A stretch of DNA of 37,315 bases from assembly GCA_015066465.1 (NCBI GenBank), contig SVOI01000022.1, positions 1 through 37,315 on the forward strand, in the 5' to 3' direction. The notes under the pieces were generated by a model. It saw nothing but the letters and a program-made list of their open reading frames with translations, made no database searches and was not told the DNA's origin. The DNA comes from Oscillospiraceae bacterium (GTDB lineage: Bacteria; Bacillota; Clostridia; Oscillospirales; Acutalibacteraceae). Position numbers and translations under genes: made by a program. Position 1 is the stretch's first letter; every line of letters begins with the position of its first letter. This document shows, one piece after another, positions 428 to 11,643 of this stretch.

Positions 428-1195
428 CTACTGTTTTTTTATAGAGTCAATCGCATTTTTTTCAAGTCTTGAAACCTGTGCTTGTGAAATGCCTATTTCA
501 TCTGCAACCTCTGTTTGTGTCATACCTTTCATAAATCGCATTGAAAGAATGTTTTTTTCTCTGTCTGGTAAATTTTTAATTTCCTCTTTTAAAACGATTT
601 CGTCTAACCAATCTCTGTCAGTTTCGTTAGAGCCTATCTGGTCCATTAAAAAAATTGTGTCGCCACCATTTGAATACACGGGTTCATAAAAAGAGACGGG
701 GTCAACAACGGCTTCAAGTGCAATTACAACTTCTTCTTTTTTTAAGTTCATTTCTTTTGCGATTTCTTCAACTGTTGGTTCGTAACCCTTTTCATTAGAA
801 ATTCTTTCTTTTATCTGCATAGCGTGGTATGCAGTGTCTCTTAAAGAACGTGAAACTCTTATCGGGTTATTGTCTCTTAAATATCGTCTCACTTCGCCAA
901 TAATCATCGGCACGGCGTAGGTAGAAAAGCGAACGTCGTGGCTTGTGTCAAAATTATCTATTGCTTTAATTAAACCAATGCAACCAACCTGAAACAAATC
1001 GTCTAAGTTTTCACCACGATTAGTAAAACGTTGAATAACACTTAAAACAAGTCTTAAGTTTCCGTTTATTAAATCTTCTCTTGCTTTTTTGTTTCCTTGC
1101 TTTGCTTCTTTTAAAAGTCTTTGTTTTTCTTTTTCAGGCAAAACCTTCAATGTAGCAGTATTTATTCCACAGATTTCTACTTTATTATAAACCAT
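428..1195 (-). CDS. sigG: RNA polymerase sporulation sigma factor SigG
   Basis: Sigma-G drives late forespore gene expression. The 255-residue protein begins with the family-specific N-terminus NKVEICGI. Region 2 is nearly canonical (NGNLRLVLSVIQRF, LDDLFQVGCIGL, VRFSTYAVPMIIGEVRRYLR), then region 3 (NNPIRVSRSLRDTAY) and region 4 with the helix-turn-helix MTQTEVADEIGISQAQVSRL near the C-terminus. The overall match to Bacillus SigG is strong enough to separate it from SigF and SigE. Length is normal. An AAAGGAG ribosome binding site lies 7 nt before the ATG. In Bacillus sigG follows spoIIGA-sigE; here it stands alone, convergent with the preceding membrane gene and divergent from the micro-gene and pyr operon. 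I could not identify a convincing sigma-F/G promoter upstream. Confidence 0.96.
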   Translation of the reverse strand: MVYNKVEICGINTATLKVLPEKEKQRLLKEAKQGNKKAREDLINGNLRLVLSVIQRFTNRGENLDDLFQVGCIGLIKAIDNFDTSHDVRFSTYAVPMIIGEVRRYLRDNNPIRVSRSLRDTAYHAMQIKERISNEKGYEPTVEEIAKEMNLKKEEVVIALEAVVDPVSFYEPVYSNGGDTIFLMDQIGSNETDRDWLDEIVLKEEIKNLPDREKNILSMRFMKGMTQTEVADEIGISQAQVSRLEKNAIDSIKKQ

Positions 1196-1760: not shown

Positions 1761-3008
1761 ATGGAATTCGCATTTAAAAATGCACACGTTTACAAAAATC
1801 AAAGAGTAACATTCAATCCTGAATATACCTGTCAGTTGGATATTCAGGGTGGTGTGGCTATTTCTTCATTTTTAAAGGATTTATTATCTTCAAGTGTTTC
1901 TGAATATGGTATTTTTCCCGGTTTCTGTGATGTTCACGTTCATCTCAGAGAGCCGGGTTTTTCTTATAAAGAGACAATTAAAACCGGTACTTTAGCTTCG
2001 GCACGAGGTGGTTACACAGACGTTCTCTCAATGCCTAACTTAAATCCTGTTCCTCATAATGAAGAAAATATGAATATCCAGAGGGATATAATTAAAAGAG
2101 ATGCTGTTATTGGGGTTCATCCGTTCGCATCACTTACAGTTGATGAAAAAGGTGAAGAGCTTTCAGAAATTGAAAAGTTAGCACCGATTTCTATTGGCTA
2201 CTCAGATGACGGCAGAGGAGTTCAGAGTGAAAGCTTAATGCGCTCTGCAATGGAAAAGGCAAAAAGTTTAAATAAAATAATCTCAGCCCATTGTGAAGAT
2301 AATTCACTTCTTAATGGTGGTTATATCCATAAGGGCGAATACGCTCTAAAAAATAACCACGCTGGTATATGTAGCGAAAGCGAATGGGGTCCAATAAAGC
2401 GTGATATAAAATTAGCAAAAGAAACAGGTTGTAAATATCACGTCTGCCACATCTCAACTAAAGAAAGTGTCGAAATAATAAGACAGGCTAAAAAAGATGG
2501 TGTAGATATCACTTGCGAAACTGCTCCGCATTACCTTGTTTTAAATGATATGATGTTACAGGATGATGGTAGATTTAAAATGAATCCACCAATCCGCTCG
2601 GAAGAAGATAGACAGGCTTTAATAGAAGGTATACTTGATGGCACAATAGATATGCTCGCAACTGACCACGCTCCACATTCTTTTGAAGAAAAATCTAAAG
2701 GGCTTAAAGGTAGTCTTATGGGAATAACGGGTATTGAAACTGCTTTCTCTATAGTTTACACAAAACTTATAAAAACTGGCATATTGCCACTTGAATTAGT
2801 TATAAAAATGCTTACAGATAATCCAAGAAATCGTTTCGGTATAAAAGATAATGATTCTCTTACTATCTGGAATTTAAGCGATGAATATAAAATTGACAGT
2901 AACGAATTTCTTTCAATGGGTAAGGCAACGCCATTCCAGAATGAAAGTGTTTTCGGAAAGTGTCTTATGACTGTATATGGAGGTAAAATTGTATGGCAAA
3001 CGAAGTAA
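1761..3008 (+). CDS. pyrC: Dihydroorotase (class I type)
   Basis: Converts N-carbamoyl-aspartate to dihydroorotate, the third step of UMP synthesis, in the cytoplasm. The 415-residue amidohydrolase keeps the metal ligands: DVHVHLREPG (His59, His61), SDDGRG (Asp150, the usual bridging or ligand Asp of bacterial class I enzymes), SAHCED (His177), CHIS (His230) and the catalytic ATDHAPH (Asp302). Substrate-binding residues are also present (MPNLNP, Asn93). Length is normal for the family. A GAAGGA ribosome binding site (1745-1750) precedes the ATG by 10 nt. It is the first pyr cistron, just downstream of the attenuator, and its last 16 nt overlap the start of carA, indicating translational coupling. 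Confidence 0.95.
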   Translation: MEFAFKNAHVYKNQRVTFNPEYTCQLDIQGGVAISSFLKDLLSSSVSEYGIFPGFCDVHVHLREPGFSYKETIKTGTLASARGGYTDVLSMPNLNPVPHNEENMNIQRDIIKRDAVIGVHPFASLTVDEKGEELSEIEKLAPISIGYSDDGRGVQSESLMRSAMEKAKSLNKIISAHCEDNSLLNGGYIHKGEYALKNNHAGICSESEWGPIKRDIKLAKETGCKYHVCHISTKESVEIIRQAKKDGVDITCETAPHYLVLNDMMLQDDGRFKMNPPIRSEEDRQALIEGILDGTIDMLATDHAPHSFEEKSKGLKGSLMGITGIETAFSIVYTKLIKTGILPLELVIKMLTDNPRNRFGIKDNDSLTIWNLSDEYKIDSNEFLSMGKATPFQNESVFGKCLMTVYGGKIVWQTK

Positions 3009-4078
3009 GAAAAAAGATTGTCTTTCAGGATGGTAGCGAATTTGTTGGCTATGGTTTTGGTGCAGACACAGAAAGAGTATGCGAAATAGTTTTTAATACT
3101 GCTATGGCAGGCTATCAGGAAATGATTTCTGACCCAAGCTTTGCAAATAAAATTGTAGTTATGACTTATCCGCTTATCGGTAACTATGGTGTTGCAGATG
3201 AAGACTTTGAAGCAAAAGCTTCTTCACTCGGTGGTCTTGTTGTAAGAGAATATAACGATATTCCTTCAAACTTCCGATACACAAAAACACTTTCAGAAGA
3301 AATGGAAGAAAACCACATTCCTGGTATCTGGGGTGTAGATACAAGAGAAATCACAAGAAAAATTCGTGATAATGGTAGTCAGAGAGTAATTCTTACAAAT
3401 GCTGACGTTCCAACAGAAAAAGCTCTTGAAATTATAAAAAATACACCAGTTGAAACTGATGCAGTAGCAAAGGTGAGCTGTAAAAAACGTTGGTATTCAA
3501 GAACAACAAATGCAAAATACAACGTTGTTGCTGTTGACTGTGGTATTAAGCTTAATATAATCCGTCTTTTAAATGCACGTGGTTGTAACGTAACTGTTGT
3601 GCCTTACAACACATCTGCAAAAGAAATTATAAAGATGAATCCAGACGGCGTTATTATTTCTAACGGCCCTGGTAGTCCAGATGACGTTTCTTCTATTGTT
3701 GAAGTAGTAAAAGAACTTAAAGGCAAATTCCCACTCTTTGGTATTGGTCTCGGCAATCTTTTGATTGGTGTGGCTTACGGTGCTAAAGCAGATAAATTAA
3801 AATTCGGTCACCACGGTGGCAACCACCCTGTAATGAATGTTGATACAAATAAGGTTTTAACAGTTTCTCAGGGTGAAGATTATACACTCAATGAAGATTC
3901 ATTGAAAAGCACAACATTAAAAATAACACATCGTGATATTCTTGATAAAACAGTTGCGGGTGTTGAAAATGCAAATGAAAAAGTTTTCGGCGTTCAGTTT
4001 AATCCAGAAGGTGCACCAGGTGCAGTAAACGATGCTTTGTTCGATAAATTTATTAATCTTATGAAGGAGGGCAAGTAA
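2993..4078 (+). CDS. carA: Carbamoyl phosphate synthetase small subunit with a degenerate glutaminase site
   Basis: CarA normally hydrolyses glutamine and channels ammonia to CarB. This 361-residue protein has normal length, a well-conserved N-terminal domain ([20 protein letters not shown]) and the GATase frame ([19 protein letters not shown]). The active site is altered at several separate places. The nucleophile motif GICLGHQLL reads GIGLGNLLI, putting Gly252 (codon 3746-3748) where Cys is expected. The usual SQNHGY of the glutamine pocket reads SQGEDY (residues 292-297). The catalytic HPE reads NPE, with Asn337 (codon 4001-4003) replacing His. The reading frame and surrounding sequence are intact, so this is not a frameshift or pseudogene decay. 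Family knowledge says Cys and His are essential for glutamine use; I infer a structural subunit of an ammonia-dependent synthetase. GGAGGT lies 8 nt before the ATG. Confidence 0.93.
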
Positions 4079-4079
4079 G

Positions 4080-7000
4080 ATGCCAAAAAGAACTGATATA
4101 AAGAAAATACTTGTTATAGGCTCTGGCCCTATCGTAATTGGACAGGCTGCTGAATTCGACTACGCTGGTACACAGGCTTGTCTTGCACTTAAAGAAGAAG
4201 GTTATGAAGTAATTCTTTGTAACTCAAACCCAGCTACTATTATGACAGATACCTCAATGGCTGACAAAGTTTATATGGAGCCACTCACACTCGAATATAT
4301 TGCAAAAGTTATCCGTTATGAAAGACCAGATGCAATTGTTCCTGGCATCGGCGGTCAGACAGGTCTCAACCTTGCTATGCAGCTTGAGAAAAAAGGCATT
4401 TTAAAAGAATGTGAGGTTGAACTTTTAGGTACAAAGAGTGAAAGTATCGAAAGAGCAGAAGACCGTGAACTCTTTAAACAACTCTGTCTTGATTTAGGTG
4501 AGCCTGTTCTTCCATCTGAAATTGCTAACACAGTTGAAGAAGGTCTTGCAGCTTGTGAAAGAATCGGTTATCCAGTTGTTCTTCGTCCTGCATTTACATT
4601 AGGTGGTACAGGTGGCGGTTTCGCTGATAACGAAGCAGAATGCCGTGAGCTTCTTAAAAATGGTCTTAAGCTTTCACCAGTTCATCAGGTTCTTGTTGAA
4701 AAGAGCATTAAAGGCTATAAAGAAATTGAGTTTGAAGTTATGCGCGACTCAAACGATACAGCTATTGCAATCTGTAATATGGAAAACGTTGACCCTGTTG
4801 GTATTCACACAGGTGACTCTATAGTTGTCTGCCCTTGTCAGACTCTTACAAATAAAGAAGCTGGTATGCTTCGTGACAGTGCTTTAAGAATTATTAAAGC
4901 GTTAGAAATTGAGGGCGGTTGTAACGTTCAGTTCGCACTTGACCCACTTTCATTTGATTATTACGTTATCGAGGTTAACCCACGTGTTTCTCGTTCATCA
5001 GCTTTAGCTTCTAAAGCAAGTGGTTACCCAATCGCTCGTGTAACTGCAAAAATTGCTGTTGGAATGCACCTTGAGGAAATTCAACTTGCAAATATTCCAG
5101 CGGCTTGTGAACCAGCACTTGACTACGTTGTTGCAAAAATGCCACGTTTCCCATTCGATAAATTTGCAACTGCAAACAATAAGCTTTCAACTCAGATGAA
5201 GGCAACAGGTGAAGTAATGAGCCTTGGCAGAACTATTGAAGAATGTCTTTTAAAGGCTGCACGTTCACTTGAAATAGGTGTTTGCCACCTTTATATGAAA
5301 AAGTTTGACGATTATACAGAAGCAGAGCTTCTCGAGTATATCAAAGACGGCACAGACGACAGAATCTTTGCTATTGCAGAGCTTATCAGCCACGGCACAG
5401 ATATCGGTATGATTTCTGATGCTACTAAGATTGATATTCTCTTCCTTGAAAAAGTAAGAAATATTATTCGTATGGAAGAAAAACTCAAAGCTAATAAGAA
5501 CGATTTAACAGTTCTTTATGAGGCAAAGAGAATGGGCTTCTGTGACCAGTATATAGCTCGTCTCTGGGAATGCACAGAACTCGATGTTTATAATCTTCGT
5601 GTTGAAAACAATATGTTCCCGGTTTACAAAATGATTGATACCTGTGCAGCAGAATTTGAAGGTACAGTTCCTTATTTCTACTCAACCTATGAAGCAGAAA
5701 ACGAATCTGTTGTAACAGATAAAGAAAAAATCATTGTTCTTGGTTCTGGTCCTATCAGAATTGGTCAGGGTGTTGAATTTGACTACTCAACAGTTCACGC
5801 TGTTCAGACAATCAAAGCTTCTGGTTACGAGGCAATTATTATAAACAACAACCCAGAAACTGTTTCAACAGACTACACCTGTTCAGATAAGCTTTATTTC
5901 GAACCACTTACAGTTGAAGATGTTATGAATATTATCCACCTCGAAAAACCAATGGGCGTTATCGCTTCTCTTGGTGGTCAGACTGCTATCAACTTAGCAG
6001 AGCCACTTAAAAATCGTGGTGTGAAAATCATCGGTACAGACTGTGATGCTATTGAAAAAGCAGAAAACCGTGATTCATTCGAAAAGCTCCTTAAAGAGCT
6101 CGATATTCCACAACCAGAAGGTAAAGCTGTTACTAAGATAGAAGATGGTCTCGAAGCTGCAAAGAAAATCGGCTACCCTGTATTAGTTCGTCCATCATTC
6201 GTTTTAGGTGGCCGTGCAATGCAGATTGTTGCTGATGAAGAACAATTAAAGCATTACCTTAAAACTGCCGTTGAAATTGATGAGGACAAGCCAGTTCTTG
6301 TTGATAAATATATTTCAGGTAAAGAAGTTGAAGTTGATGCTATCTGCGACGGTAAAGACGTTTTCGTACCAGGTATTATGGAGCTTGTTGAAAGAACAGG
6401 TATCCACAGTGGTGACTCAACAAGCGTTTACCCAACCTTCAGTATTTCACAAAAGGTAAGAGAAACAATTCTTGATTATACAAAGAAATTAGGTCTTGGT
6501 ATCGGTATCATTGGTCTTTACAACATTCAGTTCATTGTTGATAAGGATGACAACGTATTCATTATCGAGGTTAACCCACGTTCTTCAAGAACAGTTCCAT
6601 TCCTTTCAAAAGCAACTTCTTATAGTCTTGCAGATATTGCAACTCTCACAATCTTAGGCAAGAGCCTTAAAGAGCAGGGTATTGACTATATTTACCCAGA
6701 AGATAAAAAACGTTGGTATGTTAAAGCACCTGCTTTCTCATTCTCAAAGCTTCGTGGTCTTGATGCTTACCTTTCACCAGAAATGAAGTCAACAGGTGAA
6801 GCTATCGGTTATGACGATAAACTCACACGTGCGCTTTATAAAGCATTACAGGCTTCTGGTATGAACGTTATGAATTATGGTACAGTTCTCGCAACTATTG
6901 CCGATGAAGATAAAGAAGAAGCATTACCAATCATTCGTCGCTTCTACAATATGGGCTTCAACATTCAGGCAACTGAGGGTACTGCAAACTTCCTTAAAGA

Positions 7001-7259
7001 AAATGGTATCAGAACTCACGCTGTTAAGAAAATCAGCGAAGGCAGTGAAGAAATTCTTAACAATATGCGTCAGGGTTATATCAACTACGTTATCAATACT
7101 CGTGATATCAACCAGACTGGTTACTTGTCAGATGGTCACGAAATCCGTCAATGTGCTGTTGAAAACAACGTAACACTCTTCACTTCACTCGATACTGTTG
7201 CTGTGTTACTCGATGTTCTTGAAGAAACAACACTTTGCATTTCAACAATTGACGCTTAA
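4080..7259 (+). CDS. carB: Carbamoyl phosphate synthetase large subunit
   Basis: Makes carbamoyl phosphate from bicarbonate, ammonia and two ATP. The 1059-residue protein has the standard plan. The N-terminal carboxyphosphate half starts with a [17 protein letters not shown] motif and carries [16 protein letters not shown]. The carbamoyl-phosphate half begins around residue 548 with [18 protein letters not shown] and carries [18 protein letters not shown]-terminal allosteric MGS-like domain runs from about residue 932, with an ATEGTA phosphate-binding type motif and VINT, resembling the nucleotide-regulated bacterial domain more than the acetylglutamate-regulated animal one. It appears fully functional, in contrast with its CarA partner. 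The ATG is 1 nt beyond the carA stop, with AAGGAGG (4064-4070) inside the end of carA, so the two subunits should be made in step. Confidence 0.96.
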
Positions 7260-7289: not shown

Positions 7290-8021
7290 ATGACTCAAGG
7301 AATTTATACAATAAAAGAAAACAAAAAAATCGCAAAAGATGTTTTCAAAATGATTGTTGAGGGCGATACCTCTGCTTTGACTGCAACAGGTCAGTTTGTT
7401 AACTTAAAAATTGACGGTTTATATTTAAGACGTCCAATTTCAGTTTGTGATTATGATGACAGTACAATTACACTTATCTATAAGGTAGTAGGTGCAGGTA
7501 CTGAGATTATGTCTACAAGAGTACCAGGCGAAAGGTTTGATATTTTAGTTGGGCTCGGCAATGGCTACAATACCGATAAAAGTGGAGGAAATCCACTTTT
7601 AATCGGCGGTGGTGTTGGTGTTCCACCAATGTATGGACTTTGTAAAAAGTTAATAGCAGAAGGCAAAAAGCCAACTGTAATTTTAGGCTTTAATACTGCT
7701 GATGAAATCTTCTACAAAGAAGAATTTGAAAATTTGGGTGCAACAGTTTACGTTACAACTGTTGATGGTAGTGTAGGTGTAAAGGGCTTTGTAACCGATG
7801 TTATGAAAGACCTTACATATTCTTACTTCTTCACTTGTGGGCCAATGCCAATGTTTAAAGCTATTGAAAATACTGCAGTAACAAGCGGTCAATATAGCTT
7901 TGAAGAAAGAATGGGCTGTGGCTTTGGTGCTTGTATGGGTTGCTCCTGCAAAACAAAATACGGCAACAAACGTATCTGTAAAGATGGTCCTGTTTTAGAA
8001 AGGGAGGAGATTATATGGTAA
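7290..8021 (+). CDS. pyrK: Dihydroorotate dehydrogenase B electron-transfer subunit
   Basis: PyrK carries FAD and a 2Fe-2S cluster and passes electrons from the PyrD flavin to NAD+. The 243-residue protein shows the ferredoxin-reductase fold: the FAD-binding LRRPISVCD near residue 50, the nucleotide-binding LLIGGGVGVPPMYGL and the conserved FTCGPMPMFKA. The C-terminal cluster site is C-x4-C-x2-C-x11-C at Cys210, Cys215, Cys218 and Cys230. A TTTGGAGA ribosome binding site lies in the 30-nt gap after carB. Its last seven bases overlap the pyrD start (ATGGTAA), which fits the fixed stoichiometry of the PyrK2PyrD2 complex. Presence of PyrK shows the class 1B, NAD-linked enzyme typical of Gram-positive anaerobes. 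Confidence 0.95.
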   Translation: MTQGIYTIKENKKIAKDVFKMIVEGDTSALTATGQFVNLKIDGLYLRRPISVCDYDDSTITLIYKVVGAGTEIMSTRVPGERFDILVGLGNGYNTDKSGGNPLLIGGGVGVPPMYGLCKKLIAEGKKPTVILGFNTADEIFYKEEFENLGATVYVTTVDGSVGVKGFVTDVMKDLTYSYFFTCGPMPMFKAIENTAVTSGQYSFEERMGCGFGACMGCSCKTKYGNKRICKDGPVLEREEIIW

Positions 8022-8926
8022 ATCTTGAAACTTCACTTTGTGGTTTAACACTCTCAAATCCCTTGATTCCTGCAAGCGGTACTTTCGGATACGGCTACGA
8101 ATTCGCAGAGCTTTATGATATTAATATTTTGGGTTCATTCTCATTCAAAGGCACAACTAAGGATGCTCGTTTTGGTAATCCTACACCAAGAATTGCAGAA
8201 TGTGAAGCTGGTATGATAAATGCTGTCGGACTTCAGAATCCTGGTGTTGAAAAGGTAATTACAGAAGAGTTACCAAAGCTTAAAGAAGTGTTTAATAAAA
8301 AAGTTATGGCAAACGTAAGTGGATTTTCAGTTGAAGATTACGTTTACACTTGCGAGAAGTTAGATAAAGAAGAACAAGTTGGTTGGCTTGAGGTTAACGT
8401 TAGCTGTCCAAATGTTCACGGTGGCGGTATGAGCTTTGGTACTTCACCAGAAGCCGCCGCAGAAGTAACAAGAGAAGTTAAAAAAGCTACAACAAAGCCT
8501 GTAATTATAAAGCTTTCACCTAATGTTACTGATATTGTGTCTATAGCAAAGGCTTGCGAAGAAGCTGGTGCAGACGGTATAAGCCTTATAAATACACTTT
8601 TAGGTATGCGAATTGATTTAAAAACAAAGAAACCTGTTATTGCTAACAAAATGGGTGGTTTCTCAGGTAATGCAATTAAACCCGTTGCAGTAAGAATGGT
8701 TTATCAGGTATATGATGCAGTTAACATTCCGATTGTCGGAATGGGCGGTGTTTCAACTGCAGAGGATGTAATTGAATTTATGTTAGCAGGTGCTTCAGCT
8801 GTTGAGGTTGGTGCTGCAAACTTAATTAACCCTTACGTGTGTAAAGATATTATTGAAGATTTACCACGTGTTATGGAAAAATATGGTATTACTAATTTAA
8901 AAGATATTATAGGAGGCGCACACTAA
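8015..8926 (+). CDS. pyrD: Dihydroorotate dehydrogenase B, catalytic subunit (class 1B)
   Basis: Oxidises dihydroorotate to orotate using FMN and hands electrons to PyrK. The 303-residue protein starts [20 protein letters not shown] and has the class 1 active-site loop NVSCPN with Cys131 as the catalytic base, which distinguishes it from serine-based class 2 enzymes. FMN-binding segments include [17 protein letters not shown] and [28 protein letters not shown] ribosome binding site sits inside the end of pyrK. The stop codon overlaps the pyrF start (TAATG). Length and motifs are all normal. Confidence 0.96.
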
Positions 8927-9624
8927 TGGGTAAAGACGTAATTATTGCTTGTGACTTCAGTAGTAAACAGGCTTGTATGGATTTTCTTGATAAGTTTACA
9001 GATAGAAAGCCATTCGTAAAAATCGGTATGGAGCTTTTCTATGCAGAAGGTCCACAAATTGTTCGTGAAATTAAAGCGAGAGGTCACAAAATTTTCCTTG
9101 ACTTAAAGCTTCACGATATTCCAAATACAGTAAAAAAATCAATGTCAGTTTTATCTAACTTAGATGTTGATATGACAAACCTTCACGCTGCTGGTACAGG
9201 CGCTATGATGGAAGGTGCTTTAGAAGGTCTTACACGTGAAGATGGCACAAGACCAATTCTTATCGCAGTTACTCAGCTCACTTCAACAAGTGAAGAAAGA
9301 ATGAAAAACGAGCTTCTTATAAATGAGCCAATTGATAAGGTTGTTATGCACTATGCAAAGAATGCAAAAGATTCAGGTCTTGATGGTGTTGTTTGCTCAC
9401 CACTTGAAGCTGGTAAGGTTCACGACCTTTGCGGTAAAGATTTCCTTACAATTACTCCAGGTGTTCGTTTTGCTGATGGTGATATCGGTGATCAGGTTCG
9501 TGTTATGACACCAGCTGAAGCTAAGAAAATTGGTTCAGACTATATTGTTGTTGGTAGACCAATTACAGCAGCAGAAGACCCAGTTGCAGCATACAACAGA
9601 TGTGTAGCAGAATTTTGTGATTAA
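8926..9624 (+). CDS. pyrF: Orotidine 5'-phosphate decarboxylase
   Basis: Catalyses the last step to UMP. The 232-residue TIM barrel begins KDVIIACDF and contains the catalytic Asp-Lys-Asp array in [10 protein letters not shown] (Asp59, Lys61, Asp64). Phosphate-binding segments [10 protein letters not shown] and [10 protein letters not shown] lie near the C-terminus. The start overlaps the pyrD stop by one base, with AGGAGG at 8911-8916 as the ribosome binding site. Length is typical of the bacterial family. It lies before pyrE, a common order in Gram-positive pyr operons. Confidence 0.96.
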
Positions 9625-9636
9625 GGAGAATTAAAG

Positions 9637-10293
9637 ATGGAAGCTTATAAAAGAGAATTTATTCAGTTTTTAGAAGGTGCAGGCGTTCTTAAGTTTGGTG
9701 ATTTTACTGCTAAAAGTGGTAGAAAAATTCCTTATTTCATTAACGCTGGTGATATTAAAACAGGTGAACAAATCTGTAAATTAGGCGAATTTTATGCAAA
9801 AGCATATTTTGAAAAAGTAGGTAACAAAAAGACTGTTCTTTATGGACCTGCTTATAAAGGTATTCCAATTGCAGTTTCTGTTGCAGTAGCATTAGCTAAA
9901 AATGGGCTTGACGTTCCATTCTTCTTTAACCGTAAAGAAGAAAAAGACCACGGTGAAGGTGGCGTTTTCGTAGGCTACAAACCACAAGAAGGCGAAGAAA
10001 TCGTTATTGTTGAAGACGTTATTACTGCTGGTACTGCTATTAGAGAGAGTATGTCAATTCTTTCGGGTCTTAAAGGCACAAAGGTTGCAGCTACATTCGT
10101 TATGGTTGACCGTAAAGAAAAAGGTCAGACTGAAAAATCTGCTATGGCAGAGGTTGGCGAAGAATACGGCTTCCCAGTATATTCAGTTGTTGACGTTTAC
10201 GATATTATTGAATATCTTGAAGAAGATGAAAAAAATAAAGAAAACGTTGAAAGAATTAAAAAGTATCTTGAAGTAAATGGTGCAAAGGAATAA
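9637..10293 (+). CDS. pyrE: Orotate phosphoribosyltransferase
   Basis: Joins orotate to PRPP to give OMP, the substrate of PyrF. The 218-residue type I phosphoribosyltransferase has the PRPP loop [12 protein letters not shown] (residues 123-134), the catalytic-loop region [13 protein letters not shown], and the orotate-contacting [14 protein letters not shown] near the N-terminus. An AAGGAG ribosome binding site lies in the 12-nt gap after pyrF. The C-terminal 20 residues are a Lys/Glu-rich helix. It is followed by pyrB after 4 nt. Confidence 0.95.
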
Positions 10294-10297
10294 AACT

Positions 10298-11212
10298 ATG
10301 AGAAGTGTTATAGATGTTCTCGACCTTACAGTTGAAGAACTTGAAGAACTTGTTAAGGTTGCAGATGATATTATAGAAAATCCACAGAAATACAGTGAAA
10401 AGTGCAAGGGTAAAAAACTTGCAACACTTTTCTTTGAGCCATCAACACGTACACGTTTAAGCTTTGAAGCGGCTATGTATGAATTAGGTGGTAACGTTTT
10501 AGGCTTCTCTGAAGCACAAAGCTCATCTGCTGCAAAAGGTGAAAGTGTTGCAGATACTGCAAAAACAGTTTCTTGCTATGCCGATATTATCGCAATGCGC
10601 CACCCAAAAGAAGGTGCACCACTTGTTGCATCACTTAATGCTTCAATTCCTGTTATAAATGCAGGTGACGGTGGCCACAATCACCCGACACAGACTCTTG
10701 CGGACCTTTTAACTATTCACAGAGAAAAGGGTAGATTTAATAATTTAACTGTTGGTCTTTGTGGTGACCTTAAATTCGGCAGAACTGTTCACTCACTTAT
10801 AAATGCACTTTCTCGTTATGAAGGAATTAAATTCGTTTTAATTTCACCTGACGAATTAAAACTTCCAAGCTACATTAAAAAGGAAGTTTTAGAAAAGAAT
10901 AATTTAGAATACGTGCAAACAACTGACCTTGAGGCAGTTATGCCAGAACTTGATATTCTTTATATGACAAGAGTTCAGCGTGAACGTTTCTTTAACGAAG
11001 AAGATTATTTAAGACTTAAAGATAGTTATATTCTCACAGCAGAAAAACTCGTAAATGCTAAAAAAGATTTGTCAATTATGCATCCACTCCCAAGAGTTAA
11101 CGAAATAAGTGTTGCAATCGACGAAGACCCAAGAGCGTGTTATTTTAAACAAGTTCTTTATGGTAAATATATGCGAATGGCACTTATTCTTAAGCTTTTA
11201 GAGATTAATTAA
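10298..11212 (+). CDS. pyrB: Aspartate carbamoyltransferase, catalytic subunit
   Basis: Condenses carbamoyl phosphate with aspartate, the committed step of pyrimidine synthesis. The 304-residue protein contains the carbamoyl phosphate loop FEPSTRTR (residues 46-53), [10 protein letters not shown], and HPLPR near residue 265. I place the start at the ATG at 10298 ([10 protein letters not shown]) because AAAGGA lies 8 nt upstream and the pyrE stop ends 4 nt before it. An in-frame ATG at 10277 would overlap pyrE and has no ribosome binding site. pyrI follows after 14 nt, so the enzyme is presumably the allosteric PyrB6PyrI6 holoenzyme. Confidence 0.96.
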
Positions 11213-11226
11213 CAGGGGGTAAGAAG

Positions 11227-11643
11227 ATGAGAGTTGACTCAATTAAAAACGGCTTTGTAATTGACCATATTACAGCCGGTAATGGTATGAAAATTTACGA
11301 CTTATTGAAACTCGGCGAGCTTTCTTGCCCGGTTGCACTTATGACAAACGTTAAGAGTGCAAAAATGGGTGTTAAAGATATTATAAAAATTGATGCCGAT
11401 GTTACAATTGATATGGATATCTTAGGTTATGTTGACCCTAATGTAACTATTGATATTATTAAAGACGAAAAATTAGTTGAAAAGAAAAACGTAGATTTAC
11501 CAGAAAAATTAACAAACGTAATTTACTGTAAAAACCCACGTTGTATTTCTTCAACAGAGCAAGAACTCCCACACGTTTTCAAATTAACCGATAAAGAAAA
11601 CAGAGTTTATCGTTGTTATTATTGTGAATCAAAGGCAAAATAA
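11227..11643 (+). CDS. pyrI: Aspartate carbamoyltransferase, regulatory subunit
   Basis: PyrI binds nucleotide effectors and couples them to PyrB activity. The 138-residue protein has the N-terminal allosteric domain (DSIKNGFVIDHI, typical for ATP/CTP binding) and the C-terminal zinc domain with four cysteines, Cys101, Cys106, Cys130 and Cys133 (C-x4-C and C-x2-C), that contacts PyrB. A GGGGG ribosome binding site precedes the ATG. It is the last gene of the operon, followed by a strong terminator. Feedback control of pyrimidine synthesis here can therefore act at enzyme level (PyrI, and probably the CarB C-terminal domain) in addition to the RNA leader. Confidence 0.95.
   Translation: MRVDSIKNGFVIDHITAGNGMKIYDLLKLGELSCPVALMTNVKSAKMGVKDIIKIDADVTIDMDILGYVDPNVTIDIIKDEKLVEKKNVDLPEKLTNVIYCKNPRCISSTEQELPHVFKLTDKENRVYRCYYCESKAK

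Follow-up and report, generated by a model that had tools for sequence, protein, structure and literature searches.

A bacterial carbamoyl phosphate synthetase whose small subunit has lost two of its three catalytic glutaminase residues, predicted to use free ammonia

Introduction

Bacterial carbamoyl phosphate synthetase (CPS) is a model for ammonia channelling. Glutamine is described as donating the nitrogen to the CPSase of E. coli "and by extension" to its counterparts in all bacteria (PMC6245113, excerpt), bacterial CPS is grouped with the glutamine-using type II enzymes (PMC6022934, excerpt), and a 2026 preprint treats the CarAB of Bacteroides thetaiotaomicron as fed by CarA-generated ammonia (PMC13252398, excerpt). 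In the small subunit of the E. coli enzyme, CarA, residues Cys269 and His353 are essential for glutamine hydrolysis (PMC6245113, excerpt). The locus studied here raises the question of where a bacterial CPS takes its nitrogen from when both of these residues are replaced. It lies in the window, that is, the whole 37,315-nucleotide stretch of DNA that was analyzed, and an original prediction made from its sequence held that CarA has lost its glutaminase active site, is kept as a structural partner of CarB, and leaves the enzyme to use free ammonia.

Results

The carA gene is the second in a pyrimidine gene cluster with the order pyrC-carA-carB-pyrK-pyrD-pyrF-pyrE-pyrB-pyrI. The genes, and the altered sites within carA, are given below in window coordinates.

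1761..3008, + strand: pyrC, dihydroorotase, first gene of the cluster
2993..4078, + strand: carA, full-length small subunit (361 residues) with a dead glutaminase domain (Gly252, Asn337), from TIGR01368 and the E. coli alignment
3746..3748, + strand: GGT codon of Gly252, aligned with E. coli Cys269 (the catalytic nucleophile)
3866..3883, + strand: SQGEDY, residues 292-297, a changed form of the glutamine-pocket motif, which reads SQNHSY or similar in intact members of the family
4001..4003, + strand: AAT codon of Asn337, aligned with E. coli His353 (the catalytic base)
4080..7259, + strand: carB, full-length synthetase subunit, predicted to use free NH3
7290..8021, + strand: pyrK, dihydroorotate dehydrogenase electron transfer subunit (best match below the model's cut-off)
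8015..8926, + strand: pyrD, dihydroorotate dehydrogenase
8926..9624, + strand: pyrF, orotidine-5'-phosphate decarboxylase
9637..10293, + strand: pyrE, orotate phosphoribosyltransferase
10277..11212, + strand: pyrB, aspartate carbamoyltransferase, a user of carbamoyl phosphate
11227..11643, + strand: pyrI, aspartate carbamoyltransferase regulatory subunit

The carA open reading frame is uninterrupted, and its product belongs to the CarA family, scoring 401.4 bits with TIGR01368 (CPSase small chain; cut-off 307.35) and lying over the cut-offs of both PF00988 and PF00117. The TIGR01368 score is so far over its cut-off that automatic annotation will give this dead CarA the model's name, "glutamine-hydrolyzing," which should be taken as a warning. 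Alignment with the E. coli CarA chains in the PDB places Gly252 (motif GIGLGNLLI) at Cys269 and Asn337 (motif FNPE) at His353, and the third triad residue is kept (Glu339, Glu355 in E. coli); two of the three residues of the Cys-His-Glu triad of class-I amidotransferases are therefore lost. Residue 353 of E. coli CarA is itself Asn in the solved chain 1a9x and His in 1t36. In the glutamine pocket, Asn255, Leu256, Gly294, and Asp296 stand where E. coli CarA has His272, Gln273, Asn311, and Gly313, respectively. All three substitution clusters of the original prediction are thus found in a full-length, in-frame CarA by both the reading of the frame and the E. coli alignment, and the flanking fold motifs said to be intact (SNGPGSPDD and a second motif of ten residues) are present. 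The glutaminase domain is kept and its catalytic Cys is gone, as in CPS1-like ammonia-dependent synthetases. A shifted nucleophile was considered and set aside: the CarAs at loci L008 and L009 (GIGLGC) have a Cys three residues on, where the window CarA has Asn255.

CarB, for its part, is as complete as had been claimed (1059 residues), with 1482.8 bits for NF003671 (cut-off 599; the match spans residues 1-1051) and 1441.4 bits for TIGR01369, also over cut-off. Because carA and carB are separate open frames, the locus does not have the single chain of CPS I proper.

The window comes from a draft genome (2.53 Mb in 92 contigs, 80.6% complete), and an error of sequencing or assembly could produce such a gene. 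Of the 22 genomes of its genus that were searched, itself among them, five others turned out to have a CarA 88-90% identical, and the triad positions read Gly, Asn, and Glu in all six genomes of this window clade. The third cluster varies within the clade, being SQGEDY in the window and SQSEDY or SQSQDY in the other five. The nearest relatives carry the same Gly and Asn and not the normal Cys and His, and other lineages have lost the triad by different substitutions; the probability of an error is negligible, and an isolated mutation is likewise ruled out by the six genomes.

Alternatively, carA might be a decaying pseudogene in a cell that lives on salvaged pyrimidines. With dN/dS calculated as mean dN over mean dS for the 15 pairs among the six clade genomes, we obtained 0.064 for CarA residues 1-165 (the N-domain), 0.061 for residues 166-361 (the GATase domain), and 0.022 for CarB residues 1-840. 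These low values mean that the dead CarA is under purifying selection; the full-length frames in six genomes and the presence of the pyr gene set also speak against decay. What would favor it is that, in the pairs compared, the rate of change of CarA relative to CarB tends to be higher for dead than for intact CarAs: dN(CarA)/dN(CarB) has a mean of 4.1 in the window clade (range 1.83-6.34), lies between 2.41 and 4.07 in five other dead pairs, and lies between 1.07 and 2.43 in eight intact pairs, it being noted that the ranges of dead and intact pairs overlap, that some pairs share a genome, and that only dN was compared in these pairs because dS was saturated in several. Constraint on the window-clade CarA is apparently relaxed relative to CarB, but the gene is not a pseudogene: dN/dS rules this reading out, and we give it hardly any credence.

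An enzyme with a dead CarA might still run on glutamine-derived ammonia supplied in trans, either by an intact CarA encoded in the missing part of the genome or by another amidotransferase docking on CarB. The incompleteness of the own genome leaves room for this, and intact CarAs do coexist with CarA-less operons elsewhere (see below). Against it, there is a single CarA match in the own genome and in each of the five sister genomes, including G015 at 97% completeness, so that the second intact carA that might have overturned the original prediction was not found in the window genome or its five nearest relatives. Apart from CarA, PF00117 matched a single protein of the own genome, encoded in what we take to be a his gene cluster and presumably HisH. 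A whole-genome CarA search was also carried out in 39 of 40 named genomes of unstated completeness (all except that of L157), 14 of them with a dead CarA beside CarB, 22 without CarA there, and 3 with an intact one. No further full CarA was found in 12 of the 14 dead-CarA genomes; one of the remaining two has a second CarA that is also dead, and the other a second CarA with an intact triad. Among the 22 CarA-less-operon genomes, 18 gave no match at E <= 1e-40 and four, Pseudoflavonifractor sp. MSJ-30 among them, have an intact-triad CarA elsewhere, in one case in a gene with an in-frame stop; within the genus of the window, G018 has an extra, separate carA-carB pair with an intact triad. On balance, supply in trans is very unlikely in the window organism. 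The second dead CarA, L272, is found in the genome of L182 and reads LGLGLGHQ and FEPD, and both small subunits found in that genome have lost the triad.

How widespread the condition is can be seen from related loci. In the genus of the window, CarB was matched in 21 of 22 genomes and CarA in only 12. Where pyrC or pyrK adjoins CarB (20 loci), CarA is dead in 8, absent in 12, and intact in none; the dead eight are the six window-clade genomes plus G002 and G004, the latter two with different substitutions, and at the 12 CarA-less loci pyrC is followed by carB with no CarA match between them. In the wider family, the best 28 CarA loci by score (L040-L067) include 24 intact CarAs and 4 dead ones, all four from genus g19 (L060, L061, L063, and L066). 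When named genomes were scanned with the window CarB, the best 80 of 592 loci were added; most of their records are titled Clostridia or Oscillospiraceae, and some Alistipes, Rikenellaceae, and Porphyromonas canoris. The CarA state beside CarB could be assigned at 125 of 132 loci (L039, L134, L139, L173, L192, L218, and L224 were dropped because of too little upstream sequence or a CarA fragment): the triad is intact at 32, dead at 27, and absent with CarA itself at 65, and at one locus only the N-domain is present, fused to CarB. These proportions are not those of bacteria at large, because loci entered the sample by their resemblance to the CarB of the window.

The CarA alignment covers 71 of 74 distinct proteins (one short and two fused proteins were left out; L101, among the 71, is a piece of a GMP synthase). 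Over the 125 loci, dead CarAs have Gly, Ser, Ala, or Asp at the Cys position and Asn, Tyr, Leu, Val, Thr, Ala, Glu, Asp, Gln, Ile, or Cys at the His position, with His kept in three rows; in L156 the Cys is kept and the His is Leu. On a FastTree tree of CarB, the dead label requires seven changes, at least five of which are forced by starred branches, and on an IQ-TREE tree of 61 rows, hand-thinned from the 125, it requires five, with at least four forced by well-supported branches. These counts allow regain of the triad, and forbidding regain would raise the number of losses. The absence of CarA, in turn, forms one clade in both trees (support 99). The window gene stands as originally predicted, but not as a single case, since its relatives have other dead CarAs and CarA-less operons: it is one of several losses, and carA is gone in a large related group, so that the claim needs to be widened.

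G002 has, in addition, a second CPS (L013/L038), a fusion of the CarA N-domain and CarB that lacks a GATase domain; its open frame has 1516 residues and is adjoined by what we take to be a carbamoyltransferase gene. This fusion is a second route to a CPS without a glutaminase.

CarB sequences were then compared, column by column, between the CarA states in 121 rows (CarB longer than 1000 residues, leaving out the distant L036 and the fusion L038), counting as conserved any column at 95% or more in the CarA-intact group. In the CarA-less group, 31 of the 324 conserved columns in residues 1-545 are replaced and none of the 277 in residues 546-1058 (Fisher p = 3e-9). E. coli CarA touches CarB at its carboxyphosphate and oligomerization domains, residues 1-552 (PMC6245113, excerpt). 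At 26 of these 31 columns, the dead group has the residue of the intact group as its commonest one; that is, the CarA-contacting half of CarB retains most of these residues beside a dead CarA and has replaced them in the CarA-less group. Together with purifying selection on the dead CarA, this agrees with the original proposal that CarA is kept as a structural partner.

The same imbalance between the first and second halves of CarB appears in the other contrasts involving the CarA-less group, with 18 and 2 changed columns from absent to intact, 17 and 3 from dead to absent, 16 and 1 from intact plus dead to absent, and 13 and 3 from absent to intact plus dead. As controls, the Bacteroidota clade against Clostridia with CarA gave 2 and 1 in one count and 2 and 2 in another; a split of the intact group into two parts gave 0 and 0 in both directions; and the CarA-less group against the Bacteroidota clade gave 23 and 11 in one count (p = 0.052) and 25 and 8 in another (p = 0.004). 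Going from the intact group to individual dead-CarA lineages, we counted 12 and 3 for the window clade (p = 0.063), 9 and 3 for the g19 dead clade (p = 0.16), and 12 and 0 for L023/L025/L157 (p = 0.0006). The first half of CarB thus also moves in some lineages with a dead CarA, and the pattern is not specific to CarA loss; it should also be noted that CarA absence has a single origin, which makes the CarB contrast one event in evolution and not a replicated comparison.

One of the 31 columns is CarB Arg265, which is Arg in 31 of 31 intact rows and in 24 of 26 dead rows (Lys in two) and Asn in 61 of 64 CarA-absent rows. The window CarA, for its part, has Ala344-Val345 at the position of E. coli Pro360-His361, where 30 of 32 intact neighbors have Pro-Gln. 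CarB Arg265 and CarA Pro360 and His361 are tunnel-wall residues, as Kim and Raushel reportedly described in 2004, and the replacement of the latter two in the window CarA makes a perforated tunnel wall a possible inlet for ammonia in this enzyme. Engineered E. coli CarA mutants include C269G or C269S and the tunnel-wall double mutant P360A/H361A. Compared with these and with engineered H353N, the window CarA has a natural Gly at Cys269, a natural Asn at His353, and Ala-Val at Pro360-His361, and its changes are multiple and fixed in a clade.

A kept but dead CarA might also have become a regulatory subunit, in which the former glutamine pocket senses a ligand and switches CarB, much as acetylglutamate acts on vertebrate CPS1. 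In favor, the GATase domain is complete and its dN/dS is close to that of the N-domain (0.061 versus 0.064, as given above), yet the GATase-less fusion of G002 suggests that the N-domain can manage without it. No conserved new pocket was identified in the dead CarAs, and the former active site differs between the dead lineages, which suggests decay rather than one new ligand. We regard a regulatory role as unlikely, and it is in any case compatible with an ammonia-dependent CPS.

Two other enzymes of nucleotide synthesis, GMP synthase (GuaA) and CTP synthase (PyrG), also appear altered in this lineage. The only PF00958 match in the own genome is a GuaA of 326 residues without a GATase domain (TIGR00884, 435.5 bits). 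The features concerned are as follows.

L242:9033-10010 (own genome): short GuaA
L245:9098-10075: short GuaA
L242:7787-8986, also in L243-L245, L282, and L283: CofE-like gene

PF00958 was matched in 19 of the 22 genus genomes, in 18 of them with an open frame of 327-451 residues (judged by length only, except in the own genome and G015); two of the 18 (G001 and G021) have an additional long GuaA frame of 516-549 residues, and G003 has only a cut piece. The frame of G002 (437 residues) gives a weak GATase match (19.3 bits, below cut-off) and so may be an eroded long form. In some other genera (L277, L279, and L280), a short GuaA lies close to a second, more distant GuaA.

The CTP synthase domain PF06418 was matched in 14 of 14 control genomes, 99 of 150 family genomes, and 4 of 22 genus genomes. 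The search, which starts with a loose first look, gave no PF06418 match in the other 51 family and 18 genus genomes; among those without one are the window genome (80.6% complete) and three genomes 97-99% complete with a CarB of the pyr-operon type (G015, G009, and G044). In the 103 family genomes that are at least 90% complete and have CarB, both CarA (scored at E <= 1e-40) and PyrG were found in 72, CarA only in 12, PyrG only in 3, and neither in 16, counts that are not a test of independence since the genomes are related. Three of the 12 CarA-only genomes were read: CarA is dead in G015 and G168 and intact in G111. A switch to ammonia does not account for the loss of PyrG, since what is missing is the synthetase domain, and CTP in these genomes would come either from salvage or from an enzyme of a new kind. 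When the neighborhood of the short GuaA was examined for a CTP synthase substitute, a recurrent neighbor was the CofE-like gene.

Tentatively, these changes may be parts of one process, in which a branch of gut Clostridia gave up glutamine nitrogen in nucleotide synthesis: the CPS glutaminase dead or deleted, GuaA without its GATase domain, PyrG gone with UTP presumably aminated by an ammonia-using enzyme, and the window clade midway, before the loss of carA. We consider this possible but somewhat doubtful.

In 6 of the 14 stretches examined, the gene immediately preceding that of the short GuaA codes for the CofE-like protein (PF01996), several of the others ending at contig ends; the two such proteins that were read have 396 and 399 residues and score below the cut-offs of the F420 ligase equivalogs.

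Discussion

The reading that we prefer, and that in our judgment has a high probability, is that the operon encodes a two-subunit CPS that does not hydrolyze glutamine and would make carbamoyl phosphate for pyrimidines from bicarbonate, ATP, and free ammonia. By homology the window CarA is a member of its family, by its residues it is predicted not to be a glutamine amidotransferase, and it may work in the manner of CPS1. Glutamine would not be processed by this subunit, which would bind CarB and hold it in a working state, and ammonia would enter from solution, through an entrance at the subunit interface or a leaky tunnel wall; the window CarAB thus very probably uses free ammonia in place of glutamine.

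The large subunit of E. coli, CarB, can form carbamoyl phosphate with ammonia as the nitrogen source, and work on this in vivo is cited (PMC6245113, excerpt). E. coli variants with a blocked or perforated tunnel lose the glutamine-dependent activity and are otherwise normally active; the title of a work on such tunnel variants, cited in the same place, contains the words "but not ammonia," and a less clearly defined interface path for ammonia might exist in the E. coli enzyme too (PMC4655335, excerpt). The ammonia level needed by the E. coli enzyme is judged likely to be physiologically irrelevant (PMC6245113, excerpt), and an ammonia-using window enzyme must therefore have either a better affinity or a rich supply.

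The closest known parallel is vertebrate CPS1. In human CPS1 the glutaminase-like domain is kept but has Ser in place of the catalytic Cys and is inactive for that reason; the enzyme takes ammonia from its surroundings, and a path for it has been proposed along the interface of the two moieties (PMC4655335, excerpt). As in CPS1, the window CarA keeps an ancestral glutaminase domain without the catalytic Cys, and both CarA and CarB align to solved chains of the mitochondrial ammonia-dependent CPS. CPS1, however, is one chain, serves ureagenesis, and is activated by N-acetylglutamate through its C-terminal domain, whereas the window enzyme consists of two subunits encoded in a bacterial pyrimidine operon, and its changes combine Cys to Gly with His to Asn and an altered pocket. 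The Gln that blocks the tunnel of human CPS1 lies at the Gly293 position, which is still Gly in the window CarA (Gly276). With E. coli CarAB (CPS II), the window enzyme shares homologous subunits, the same domains, and a large subunit that follows the small one, and it differs in having lost two of the three triad residues and parts of the glutamine pocket.

Free-ammonia use is known for bacterial NAD synthetase (PMC3376133, excerpt). The single-domain, ammonia-dependent form of that enzyme is a different case: its glutaminase belongs to a nitrilase-like type of domain, and its ammonia-dependent form is thought to be ancestral, whereas the ammonia form of the window-type CPS looks derived.

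An inactive glutaminase domain is, then, already known from vertebrate CPS1, and the bacterial case in a pyr operon is apparently new; a literature search found no report of a dead-CarA or CarA-less bacterial CPS, its coverage being partial and the result weak evidence of novelty. Natural glutaminases that are dead, deleted, or missing, mostly on closely related CarBs, would offer direct tests of the role of CarA beyond glutamine hydrolysis, and such enzymes would show the conversion of an ammonia tunnel to external intake. A dead or missing CarA may also be a genome-readable sign of life in ammonia-rich niches.

As to the surroundings of the operon, Rfam gave no matches in the window and ARAGORN found no tRNA in it. 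A sporulation sigma factor of the SigG/SigF family (window 428-1195, - strand; NF006071 over cut-off) is encoded beside the pyr genes and suggests that the organism forms spores or descends from one that did. Of 80 record titles (named genomes, best 80 of 592 loci by window CarB), 38 name a ruminant gut site, and these titles of named relatives, the only source on this point, suggest a gut habitat for the window organism.
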